The notes under the pieces were generated by a model, which worked only from the letters and a program-made list of their open reading frames with translations, ran no database searches and had not been told where the DNA came from. From Sulfurovum sp. (GTDB lineage: Bacteria > Campylobacterota > Campylobacteria > Campylobacterales > Sulfurovaceae), in contig JALWLD010000056.1 of NCBI GenBank assembly GCA_027081115.1, positions 1-49,497 of the forward strand: a stretch of 49,497 nt of DNA. Direction: 5' to 3'. The position numbers and the translations under genes were made by a program. Of the stretch, positions 44,166 through 47,626 are shown one piece after another; positions within the stretch are counted from its first letter, which is position 1; each line of letters begins with the position of its first letter.

Positions 44166-44214
44166 ATTATATTTTTAGGAAATTAGTGGTAAAAAAGTGA
44201 TTAAAAATTAATCA
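44166..44214 (-). promoter_or_regulatory. amt (short copy) promoter with upstream TGATTA-N5-TAATCA dyad
   Basis: A perfect -10 TATAAT (minus strand, 44171-44166) predicts a start near 44159. The dyad TGATTA-AAAAT-TAATCA (44198-44214) is centred about 47 bases upstream of it, where an activator would sit. No GG-N10-GC sigma54 element was seen. Confidence 0.55.
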
Positions 44215-44228
44215 ATCAGGAGAATGCT

Positions 44229-44256
44229 GTGGTAAAGAGAATTTTCTCTTTACCAC
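44229..44256 (-). other. 28-bp perfect hairpin after the second glnK
   Basis: Arms GTGGTAAAGAGAA and TTCTCTTTACCAC with a 2-base centre, 48 bases after the glnK stop. No U-tract follows on either strand. It may stabilise or end the amt-glnK transcript, or separate it from the downstream amt unit. Confidence 0.5.
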
Positions 44257-44303
44257 CAGTTAGAGCGATTTATACGTAAGGTTTTAGCATAAACACTTTA
44301 AGA

Positions 44304-44645
44304 TTAAAGTGCTTCTGCATCAGTCTCATCAGTTCTGATTCTAAGTACAGAATCGATAGTACTAACAAATATCTTACCATCACCGATCTTACCAGTTTTA
44401 GCAGCAGCATTAATTGCTTTTACAGCGATATCTGCATACTCTTCATTGCTCACAACGATTTCTAGTTTGATCTTAGGGATGAACTCAACCACATACTCTG
44501 CACCTCTATAGAGCTCAGAGTGACCTTGTTGTCTACCGTAACCTTTTACTTCAGATACAGTCATACCTTCGATTCCTGCTTCTACCAATGCATCTTTTAC
44601 ATCTTCAAGTTTAAATGGCTTGATGATCGCTTCAATTTTTTTCAT
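44304..44645 (-). CDS. glnK: nitrogen regulatory protein P-II (second copy)
   Basis: 113 residues with the same T-loop (YRGAEYVVEF, Tyr51) and B-loop as the other copy; differences cluster at residues 59-80 and 96-112. It follows the long amt gene by 42 bases. The close similarity of the two amt-glnK pairs' P-II members suggests a segment duplication, while the amt genes are much more divergent. Confidence 0.94.
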   Translation of the reverse strand: MKKIEAIIKPFKLEDVKDALVEAGIEGMTVSEVKGYGRQQGHSELYRGAEYVVEFIPKIKLEIVVSNEEYADIAVKAINAAAKTGKIGDGKIFVSTIDSVLRIRTDETDAEAL

Positions 44646-44687
44646 GTTAAAAATCCTTATATATTTTTAGGGGAAAGGATGAATCTA

Positions 44688-45995
44688 TTATAGATTCATT
44701 CCTCTCTCTCCGTGTACTGACTCGTCAAGACCCATCTCTTCAGTCTCAGCATCAACTCTGGCACCACCTGTTAATGCAGATGCTACATAATAAACAACTA
44801 CAGTACCAATAAGTGTCCAAAGACCAACAACAACTACTGATTCAACTTGAACCATGAATTGTCCCATTCTGTCACCACTCTCTTTAAGTGGACCGTCCCA
44901 TAGAAGATCTTTGTCGTTCAATGCAAGTACACCAGTCATCAATGCACCCCAAAGACCAGCAAGGAAGTGGATACCGAATGCATCTAGAGAGTCATCATAA
45001 CCGAACATTTTTTTCAATTTAACAACACCGAAGAATCCGATAGCTGCACCACCGATACCGACGATGAATGCTCCACCTACAGATACGAAACCTGCAGCAG
45101 GTGTGATAGCAACAAGACCAGCAACAATACCAGATGCAATCCCAAGAAGTGTTGGTTTCTTATAGACAACCCATTCGATGATCAACCATGTAAGACCAGC
45201 AGCAGCCGTGGCAATAGTGGTTGTAAGTAAAGCAACACCAGCAATTGCATTTGCACCAAATGCTGAACCGGCATTAAATCCGTACCAACCGAACCATAGT
45301 AGTGCCGCACCAGCAGCAGTAAAGATAATTGAGAATGGTTTCATGGCAATTTTAGGGTATCCGGTTCTTTTACCAACAAGGATAGCAAGAACAAGACCAG
45401 CTAAACCACCGTTCATGTGTACAACTGTACCACCGGCAAAGTCAAGTGCACCTGCATCAAAGAGAAGGGCACCGTCTCCACCCCATACCATGTGTGTAAT
45501 AGGAGCATAAACAACTAGACCCCATAAGGCTACGATCACCATCCATGTTGAGAATTTCATACGACCGATCACAGAACCAGAAGCGATCGCTACAGTGATA
45601 GCAGCAAATGTTCCCTGGAATGCAATAAATACGAATGTAGGGTAAGAACCGCTTAGGTCTTTCCACGTAATACCATTTAGGAATACGTTACCGAATCCAC
45701 CGATAAACTTTTGAACGCCTGCAGCTTCAGAAGTACCGAACGCAAGTGAATAACCTGCAACGATCCATACAACAAATGCAAGTACAAATGCACCCATAAC
45801 CATTGCGTATGTGTTCAATGCATTTTTAGATCTTGACATACCTGCGTAGAAAAGTGCAAGACCTGCCGGTGTCATTAGTAGAACGAGTGCAGTGGACATC
45901 ATCATCCATGCTGTATCACCCGAATCGAGTTTGTCTTCTGCAAATGCAGCAATTGGCAATAGTGCTGCCAGTAGAGCGAAAAGTTTTAACTTCAT
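44688..45995 (-). CDS. amt: ammonium transporter, Amt family (long copy, with signal peptide)
   Basis: 435 residues. A Sec signal peptide (MKLKLFALLAALLPIAAFA) precedes DTAWMMMSTALVLLMTPAG. Pore histidines are in GTVVHMNGGLAGL and FGIHFLAGLWGA. The C-terminus ends in a GlnK-contact tail (GLDESVHGERGMNL). The signal peptide is like that of E. coli AmtB. A dyad-containing promoter lies upstream. Confidence 0.94.
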   Translation of the reverse strand: MKLKLFALLAALLPIAAFAEDKLDSGDTAWMMMSTALVLLMTPAGLALFYAGMSRSKNALNTYAMVMGAFVLAFVVWIVAGYSLAFGTSEAAGVQKFIGGFGNVFLNGITWKDLSGSYPTFVFIAFQGTFAAITVAIASGSVIGRMKFSTWMVIVALWGLVVYAPITHMVWGGDGALLFDAGALDFAGGTVVHMNGGLAGLVLAILVGKRTGYPKIAMKPFSIIFTAAGAALLWFGWYGFNAGSAFGANAIAGVALLTTTIATAAAGLTWLIIEWVVYKKPTLLGIASGIVAGLVAITPAAGFVSVGGAFIVGIGGAAIGFFGVVKLKKMFGYDDSLDAFGIHFLAGLWGALMTGVLALNDKDLLWDGPLKESGDRMGQFMVQVESVVVVGLWTLIGTVVVYYVASALTGGARVDAETEEMGLDESVHGERGMNL

Positions 45996-46029
45996 GCTAT
46001 ATTCCTTTGTTTTATAATTTAACAGTTGA

Positions 46030-46083
46030 ATAATAACATGAAAGGAAGTATTTACTTTGGGCTAAATGATTAATTTTTAATCA
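46030..46083 (-). promoter_or_regulatory. amt (long copy) promoter with upstream TGATTA-N5-TAATCA dyad
   Basis: The dyad TGATTA-ATTTT-TAATCA (46067-46083) is part of a longer palindrome with 10-bp arms (46064-46086). A possible -10, TATTAT, is at 46035-46030 on the minus strand. This places the dyad near -52. No sigma54 element was seen. Confidence 0.5.
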
Positions 46084-46136
46084 TTTAATAATACGTTAAT
46101 ATAATCTTATCTCTTCGATAAAACAGTATTATATAT

Positions 46137-46838
46137 TTAAGAGATAAGCGGAATCTCCAATTTGATACTTCGCTCTTTAAGCAGGTGGGTAATATGGCAG
46201 TTCATGGCAATCTGCTTGATTTCAGCATCTGCATCCGAATAGCGTCCATTGGCTTCTACTGAGAGTTGTACAATAGGTTTTTTCTTCCCCTCTATAATGA
46301 CATGTTCCCCTGTGAGGAGTTTGAGTGTAATATGTATAGAGTCTGAAGAACGAAAAGACTCCAGTGTTTTTCTTAAAAGTTTGGAAAAATTATTCTGATC
46401 GAGTTTAAATGCCGGTATATCATGATCAGTCAAGAGTTGTAAGGCATTACTGTTTTTTGTTCTAAAGAGTGCAATATTTGCTTCAAGTAGAAGGTTAATA
46501 TCCGTGTTGACCAGTTTTTCTCTCTCTATAGGTGTGGTGGACTTGACTCTTGGTGCATTGTAAAAACGTATGGAGATCTGCTCTTCATTTTCATAGCCTA
46601 CAGTAATAGCATAGAAGGTAAATGAATCATAGTTAAGTGACATGGTTGTTGTCTTATAGCCAAAGCTTTGCGGTGCATAGGCCAGTGCAAGATCATAAAG
46701 TTCCTGTTTTGAAACATAACCAAAGAGAATCTCTGCGGCATTGTTCAAATAGAGTATTTTACCTAATGATGAAAAGAGAATAAACGGGCTATTGTCCCAG
46801 TCTATAAAATTTTGGAAATTAATCGATTCCGTGTTCAT
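46137..46838 (-). CDS. PAS-domain NtrB-like protein with degenerate kinase region
   Basis: 233 residues. A PAS domain occupies about 10-100 (SPFILFSSLGKILYLNNAAE, FGYVSKQEL). The rest resembles an NtrB-type histidine kinase in outline: LDQNNFSKLLRKTLESF stands where the N-box would be but without its Asn, and no phosphoacceptor His segment or G-box is visible. No membrane segment. It starts 20 bases inside the NtrC-like gene, so the two are made together. A sensor without kinase activity is inferred. Confidence 0.6.
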   Translation of the reverse strand: MNTESINFQNFIDWDNSPFILFSSLGKILYLNNAAEILFGYVSKQELYDLALAYAPQSFGYKTTTMSLNYDSFTFYAITVGYENEEQISIRFYNAPRVKSTTPIEREKLVNTDINLLLEANIALFRTKNSNALQLLTDHDIPAFKLDQNNFSKLLRKTLESFRSSDSIHITLKLLTGEHVIIEGKKKPIVQLSVEANGRYSDADAEIKQIAMNCHITHLLKERSIKLEIPLIS

Positions 46839-47553
46839 GTATTTTCTTTCTTAATGTGTTTCTGTTAATGCCCAGTATTTGTGAGAGTTGTAGTTGTGAA
46901 CCGTATTTGTGTAGACCTGCTTCAATGAGTGGTTTTTCATACAGGTCAAGAAACTCTTTGTATCCATTGTTTCCATCAAGTTCTTTTAGGAGGTAATGGT
47001 AGATGGCATCTTGAATATCTTGTCTGTACATGGAGTGTGTCATAAGATATTTGTAAATGGTACTTTTAAGGCTTTTGGAGTTTTGTGTCAGGTTGACGGG
47101 GATATCACTGTTGGGGATGTCATCGTCTTCTAACATTAAATTGGATTTTGCTTCTTTTATGAAGAGGTTTTTGATATGTTCCGTATCTTCTGGACGTTCT
47201 CTGAGTGAAGGTAATGTGTAGATAAAAGCAAAAAGTGAGTCAATTATCTGTTTATTACCTACATAGTTTGCTGTAGCAATAATACGTTTATTATCCAGAT
47301 CAAGAGATTCTTGATTGCTCAATTTCTCAAAATCTGTAATGATGAGTTCATCATGCTCTTTTAGTGCAAGTTCAACAGCCTTTTGGTCTGATCCTGAGAC
47401 AATGGGTGTATCAGGAAAGAGGTATTGTGCCAAGAGTTTTTTCCCGATATTGGCTTCGCCAATAATAATAGAGGAGACAAAAAGTGTTTTTGTGAGGTTA
47501 AACCCTTTAATGATATTTTGTACATGTTCTGAATTGGTAAAAAATTGTTCCAT
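46819..47553 (-). CDS. NtrC-like Fis-domain regulator lacking the sigma54 (GAFTGA) loop
   Basis: 244 residues. A shortened AAA+ domain shows an altered Walker A, GEANIGKK at about 32-39, a weak Walker B (LIITDFEKLS) and RIIATANY with LPSLRERPEDTEHI, typical of NtrC-type activators. The stretch with GAFTGA is absent and there is no receiver domain. The C-terminal Fis helix-turn-helix is intact (YGSQLQLSQILGINRNTLRKK). It is likely a DNA-binding regulator that no longer opens sigma54 promoters. Confidence 0.7.
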   Translation of the reverse strand: MEQFFTNSEHVQNIIKGFNLTKTLFVSSIIIGEANIGKKLLAQYLFPDTPIVSGSDQKAVELALKEHDELIITDFEKLSNQESLDLDNKRIIATANYVGNKQIIDSLFAFIYTLPSLRERPEDTEHIKNLFIKEAKSNLMLEDDDIPNSDIPVNLTQNSKSLKSTIYKYLMTHSMYRQDIQDAIYHYLLKELDGNNGYKEFLDLYEKPLIEAGLHKYGSQLQLSQILGINRNTLRKKIHEHGID

Positions 47554-47578
47554 AAATTTACTTTTTGTGTGGTTTGAC

Positions 47579-47626
47579 TGATTAAAAAATAATCATTTCT
47601 TGGTATTAAGAGATTATATCTAATCT
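47579..47626 (-). promoter_or_regulatory. promoter of the NtrC-like operon with TGATTA-N5-TAATCA downstream of the start
   Basis: On the minus strand TATAAT (47618-47613) is the -10, giving a start near 47606. The dyad TGATTA-AAAAA-TAATCA (47579-47595) then lies at about +11 to +27, a repressor position. A related dyad AGATTA-TATC-TAATCT (47611-47626) covers the -10. Confidence 0.55.

Follow-up and report, generated by a model that had tools for sequence, protein, structure and literature searches.

The 49,497-nucleotide stretch of Sulfurovum sp. DNA analyzed here (GenBank assembly GCA_027081115.1, contig JALWLD010000056.1, positions 1 to 49,497 of the forward strand; hereafter the window) carries a nitrogen locus in which an inverted repeat of 17 base pairs (bp), TGATTA-N5-TAATCA, stands before two ammonium transporter units, amtA-glnK and amtB-glnK, and before a unit encoding a Fis-domain, NtrC-like protein and its NtrB-like partner. 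We refer to the repeat as the dyad and to the Fis-domain protein as the regulator, and we examine the dyad as a candidate operator for nitrogen assimilation. The regulator, its partner, and both amt-glnK units are encoded on the minus strand. All promoter-relative positions given below are predicted from the sequence; labels beginning with G, C, L, f, and g are our handles for genomes, contigs, loci, families, and genera. The features of the locus are as follows:

47613..47618, minus strand: predicted -10 element TATAAT of the regulator operon; a similar element is seen by eye in several relatives
47579..47595: exact dyad, likely autorepression operator, at about +11 to +27 of the predicted regulator-operon start
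46819..47553, minus strand: regulator, 244 amino acids, AAA-like remnant and C-terminal Fis-type helix-turn-helix
46137..46838, minus strand: partner, 233 amino acids, PAS domain and NtrB-like catalytic (HATPase) fold; the reading frame opens inside the final codons of the regulator gene
46067..46083: exact dyad centered at about -52, likely site of amtA-glnK activation
46030..46035, minus strand: predicted -10 element TATTAT of amtA, inside TGTTATTAT
44688..45995, minus strand: amtA, ammonium transporter
44304..44645, minus strand: glnK, PII protein, first copy
44198..44214: exact dyad at the amtB promoter, the more distal of two sites, 53 bp upstream of the proximal one
44145..44161: proximal amtB promoter site, degenerate with three mismatches, 31 nucleotides upstream of the -10 element
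44108..44113, minus strand: predicted -10 element TACACT of amtB; similar elements are seen by eye in relatives
42908..44080, minus strand: amtB, second ammonium transporter
42540..42881, minus strand: glnK, PII protein, second copy

Exact matching across the window finds the dyad at the three positions listed, as a first-pass annotation of the sequence had reported, and at no other, and none of 100 dinucleotide-preserving shuffles of the window produced an exact copy. A scan of the whole host assembly (2.45 megabases, 133 contigs, contamination estimate 6.18) recovered 15 places with at most one mismatch, four of them exact and 11 with one mismatch, versus one place for a backwards control pattern. 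Three of the four exact matches are the nitrogen units of the window, which agrees with the genome-wide distribution anticipated by the first-pass annotation, and the fourth (C121:100352-100368) lies ahead of a heme-copper oxidase operon. Relaxing one half-site to TGMYTA added a single place, C121:149569, ahead of glnA, which carries this half-site variant.

The dyad is conserved in relatives ahead of amt, glnA, and orthologs of the regulator gene, the pattern that the first-pass annotation had predicted. Among nine regulator-bearing relatives fetched from the same genus, the amtA dyad is exact in seven and has a TGCCTA half-site in two, and at the regulator gene five have an exact dyad, two have one mismatch, and two have three mismatches; each of six loci from named Sulfurovum metagenome-assembled genomes contains at least one exact dyad. 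A relaxed-pattern search of 20 genomes, for which the control counts were 0-2 per genome and strand, returned matches in 19, the genome without a match being the regulator-negative G316. The places lying outside the amt cluster, 58 when counted by hand, were all inspected, in 47 loci, with target names based on Pfam and NCBIfam searches for one example of each main family and on judgment by eye for the remainder. Eight of these loci are glnA and two are amtB; seven comprise a divergent nitrite reductase and NarK, two of which also have a site ahead of an assimilatory-type nitrate reductase; one is another nitrite/sulfite-reductase-like gene, one a nitrate reductase alone, and one is flanked by genes for a molybdopterin enzyme and an NMT1-type binding protein. 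The checked examples matched glutamine synthetase over cut-off, the nitrite/sulfite reductase and NarK families, the OprD porin family, and COX1-type oxidase; the nitrate reductase example matched formate dehydrogenase and NasC models, both under cut-off.

The commonest target away from amt is a porin-like gene, found in 14 of the 47 loci (L140, L142, L144, L148, L153, L155, L159, L160, L166, L169, L170, L174, L395, and L397; OprD in the one tested), and these porins may serve nitrogen compounds. Three further loci, from three genomes, are two-gene heme-copper oxidase operons with a dyad or a variant of it (L138:3353-3462, L154:3054-3216, and L393:2979-3095), and the oxidase is possibly of the nitric oxide reductase type. 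Between the dyad and the oxidase gene of L138 and L154 stands a Crp/Fnr-like palindrome, TTGAT-N4-ATCAA, so a second regulator is likely to act there.

Across the phylum, the regulator was found in 166 of the 397 Campylobacterota genomes surveyed, including G335, in which the match (G335:C91:1874-2597) is split across two overlapping frames, possibly by a frameshift. For glnA, we scored the pattern TGNNTA-N5-TANNCA centered 60-100 nucleotides from the start codon, and this site is present in 49 of 59 regulator-positive genomes, against a shuffle mean of 0.075 and no matches in two offset windows; of 31 regulator-negative genomes, 29 were parsed, and one of these has the site. The association can also be followed within families. 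In genus g14 of family f6, the site is present in the regulator-positive G297, G315, and G374 and absent from the regulator-negative G008 and G030; in family f3 it is present in the positive G232 and G336 and absent from the 12 negatives tested; and in family f2 the sole positive tested, G167, has no glnA site. For amt in distant regulator-positive loci, the site precedes the gene in 14 of 20 parsed distinct loci (30 taken, nine without a start, and one repeat), and four of the six misses look by eye like second genes of an operon.

The spacing between site and promoter is also conserved. At amtA the dyad ends 31 nucleotides upstream of TATTAT, and at the regulator gene it begins 17 nucleotides downstream of TATAAT, or at about +11 if the -10 element sits normally; the first-pass annotation had placed both dyads in the same way (at about -52 and +11), and these placements stand. 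The end of the dyad lies 31-32 nucleotides upstream of the best -10 element in 41 of 50 glnA sites and 16 of 18 amtA promoters, giving a center near -52, and the host glnA has its site 31 nucleotides upstream of a TATAAT judged by eye. The amtB promoter needs a different description from the one first given, which placed the 44198 dyad at about -47 by reference to a TATAAT 26 nucleotides downstream of it, an element that is not kept in relatives, and which overlooked a second site. In seven of nine fetched same-genus amtB upstream regions, the two best matches are sites 52-53 bp apart (the weaker with at most three mismatches); in L054 the pair is 53 bp apart and lies further from amtB, and in L058 the distal site alone is among the best matches. 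The proximal site of the window, 44145-44161, reads TGCATATTTTTTAAACA on the strand of the gene and is 31 nucleotides upstream of TACACT. On this comparison, the 44198 dyad is the outer of the two amtB sites, which are separated by 53 bp, and its predicted position is about -105.

The regulator itself is a much reduced NtrC-like protein. It matches the NCBIfam ntrC equivalog TIGR01818 at 37.4 bits, over residues 144-240 only, against a cut-off of 558.6, whereas the C-terminal Pfam HTH_8 domain is over its cut-off (25.8 bits, cut-off 22), and a profile search of the Fis domain against the PDB has a Fis entry as its best match (E = 7e-6). Residues 23-112 are modeled as an AAA-like core. No Pfam match to a receiver domain was found up to an E value of 1, and a P-loop-like motif starts at about residue 32. 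This P-loop-like pattern is present in 90 of 93 regulators examined, and the GAFTGA pattern in none of the 93. The partner is modeled as a PAS domain followed by a histidine-kinase catalytic fold; its Foldseek matches are mostly histidine kinases and include the NtrB catalytic domain 1r62 (E = 4.3e-5, TM-score 0.67 by target length). Among 57 partners that were aligned, each of the Sulfurovum type, none shows a pattern for the H, N, G1, or G2 box, and this set does not match the phospho-accepting histidine and ATP-binding boxes of NtrB.

The genomic setting of the regulator varies. In the f7 and f10 loci viewed (e.g., L077 and L095), the gene is located between slyD-like and fabD-like genes identified by eye and overlaps the end of slyD, so the amt neighborhood is not general. 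In four f6 loci viewed (L105:7613-10150 and three others), it is adjacent to or overlaps a gene for a GlnD-like PII uridylyltransferase, checked by Pfam in one case, and an ammonium transporter is encoded nearby. Ahead of the regulator in L105 (5989-6852) is a 287-amino-acid protein that matches nothing in Pfam or NCBIfam; proteins resembling it by eye are encoded near the regulator in L282 of f4, in L109 of G394, and in further loci of f6. In the window, a DUF234 gene (47769-48557, plus strand) is divergent from the regulator, and a relative of it occurs in 16 of 26 fetched family f1 regulator loci.

On the basis of the sites observed, their conservation and spacing, the gene content, and the co-occurrence and co-variation of regulator and site, we consider it highly probable that the dyad serves a nitrogen-assimilation regulon widespread in the phylum as its operator, to which a homodimer of the Fis-domain protein would bind, activating amt and glnA and repressing its own gene. 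Our best reading of the sequences is that the regulator and its partner constitute a derivative of NtrBC that would operate free of both a phosphorelay and sigma-54. Binding by the regulator, the sign of control, and the signal input are the parts that we infer, and we envisage them as follows. At amtA, amtB, and glnA, a dimer of the protein encoded at 46819-47553, placed some 52 bp ahead of the transcription start of an ordinary sigma-70 promoter, would most likely contact RNA polymerase directly, so that activation would proceed without sigma-54 and without the ATP-driven remodeling of NtrC. The two amtB sites are about five helical turns apart and would probably bind two dimers along a single face of the helix. 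At the regulator gene, a dimer at +11 to +27 would block transcription and so limit its own synthesis, as the site lies just after the predicted transcription start. Nitrogen status probably reaches the regulator via PII, given that glnK is part of the regulated operons and that GlnD is encoded beside the regulator in one family (f6), and in the host also via the NtrB-like partner, which would act by binding and have no kinase role.

The sign of control is where an alternative survives best. The same protein might repress amt and glnA as well, with relief by PII or a glutamine signal, and the -52 sites would then not be activator sites. The site at the regulator's own gene does look repressive; however, the usual position at glnA and amtA, upstream of the -10 element at -52, falls outside the core promoter and is typical of activators, and we therefore regard general repression as unlikely.

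Somewhat less probable still is that the dyad is a nitrogen operator bound by a factor of the Crp/Fnr, TetR, LysR, or MarR type, with the Fis-domain protein a mere neighbor. The location of the regulator away from amt in f7 and f10 would suit this proposal, but the glnA sites accompany the regulator in these families even though it is not a neighbor, and a site is present at the regulator's own promoter. The GATTA-N5-TAATC portion of the dyad also fits the Fis consensus GnnYAnnnnnTRnnC (PMC8682772). The regulator is the only protein of the host genome with HTH_8 over cut-off, the other match being a 20-position fragment under cut-off. In addition, recognition helix and half-site co-vary. Most regulators have NRNT in this helix; NRIT, NRVT, NRAT, or NRTT occurs in the f4 and f6 sequences seen, in part of f8, and in two of f1. 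Counted only over genomes whose glnA site is strict (49), the third half-site base is T in one of 23 NRNT genomes versus 25 of 26 others (NRI/V/AT). On a glnA tree, of five independent pairs on supported branches, 4.9 on average point the same way and none the opposite way. We take this co-variation as suggestive, but not proof, of a regulator-operator pairing; together with the single HTH_8 protein it favors the Fis-domain NtrC-like protein, the binder put forward by the first-pass annotation.

Use of the sites by a full-length NtrC with sigma-54 is a highly improbable third explanation. It draws on the 17-bp 6-5-6 layout that the dyad shares with the NtrC site TGCACCAnnnTGGTGCA (PMC8743547), on core targets in common with NtrC regulons (PMC5343134), and on the presence in some relatives of other sigma-54 activators, whose ntrC-model matches run through the AAA+ part under cut-off. 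Among the matches listed, however, the ntrC model is over cut-off in none of 22 genomes and the host matches cover the receiver part only, and we rejected a canonical NtrC. A -24/-12 element was found at neither amtA nor amtB of the window, and at a score of at least 13 it is absent from 69 of 70 glnA upstream regions, the two matches being in one regulator-negative genome; sigma-54 control of amt and glnA was likewise rejected. By comparison, nifH upstream regions do have the -24/-12 element in 21 of 29 cases (one of 30 loci was not parsed), and 28 of these 29 are without the dyad. The one nifH region with the dyad pattern compares with a shuffle mean of 0.45, and we rejected the dyad as a nifH control element; nifH was over cut-off in 71 genomes, and the regulator is present in 71 of 71, a figure subject to confounding by family. 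That the dyads are chance palindromes of AT-rich intergenic DNA can be dismissed, AT-rich as the host genome is, since the window shuffles yielded no exact site, exact sites also occur in relatives of 0.42-0.50 G+C (L054, L056, L057, L060, and L061), and the glnA sites far exceed their shuffle mean.

Several observations weigh against our proposal of a dyad-based regulon activated by the Fis-domain protein. The strict glnA site is absent from 10 of the 59 regulator-positive genomes, and G313 and G316, scored regulator-negative, retain a glnA site (a near match in G316); both belong to the family of the window, such that either loss of the regulator or an assembly gap is possible, and the two are indistinguishable. 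Regulator presence is confounded with family, and because it follows families, a plain p-value would overstate independence. The co-variation amounts to only two independent changes on the regulator's own tree, and on the glnA tree its p-value is 0.0625. The computational checks suggested by the first-pass annotation mostly favor its reading, but it had treated many random genome hits without a nitrogen link as a point against the dyad, and 10 of the 47 loci have no evident nitrogen link, some of them lying inside genes. At the host oxidase operon, the nearest TATAAT, judged by eye, is 54 nucleotides downstream of the dyad. Finally, the structural model of the regulator is of modest confidence (predicted local distance difference test score 73, predicted TM-score 0.43).

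A comparison of 33 regulator groups in Proteobacteria, NtrC included, omitted the epsilonproteobacteria for want of orthologs of the regulators studied (PMC5343134). For the gap described there, our analysis supplies a candidate regulator, operator, targets, and promoter geometry for 166 of 397 genomes, and we found no paper on this regulator in the open-licence literature searched. More tentatively, at somewhat short of even chances, we suggest that much of the phylum uses, for nitrogen assimilation, a decayed NtrBC that has lost the phosphorelay, the receiver, and the coupling to sigma-54, in which PII/GlnD would signal directly to the Fis-AAA-like protein or to its dead-kinase partner and in which recognition helix and operators would have switched together between TGATTA and TGTATA. 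The system would provide a naturally occurring set of regulator-operator pairs, together with a case in which a two-component system may have kept its regulon after losing the phosphorelay.

The system resembles NtrB-NtrC in its predicted targets (glnA, amt, glnK, its own operon, and nitrate/nitrite assimilation), its 17-bp 6-5-6 dyad, its Fis-type DNA-binding domain, and the NtrB-like fold predicted for the partner. It differs in that the regulator has no detected receiver or GAFTGA motif, the partner has no recognizable phospho-accepting histidine, amt and glnA have no sigma-54 element in the regions searched, and the half-site is TGATTA in place of TGCACC of NtrC. With Fis it shares the C-terminal domain and the GnnYAnnnnnTRnnC site. 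Fis lacks an AAA-like domain and is a small, globally acting factor, whereas the site described here is strict and most of its targets are nitrogen genes. Further parallels are the NtrC proteins of Rhodobacter capsulatus and Caulobacter, which lack GAFTGA and act at sigma-70 promoters, with control of glnA in Caulobacter, and which need the NtrC phosphorylation site and the partner NtrB (PMC10274813). The regulator would be like them an NtrC-like protein without GAFTGA at sigma-70 promoters, and unlike them in having no receiver, no recognizable kinase partner, and a much shorter AAA-like part; a GAFTGA-less NtrC at sigma-70 promoters is already known, and what would be new, if confirmed, is the loss of the whole phosphorelay.

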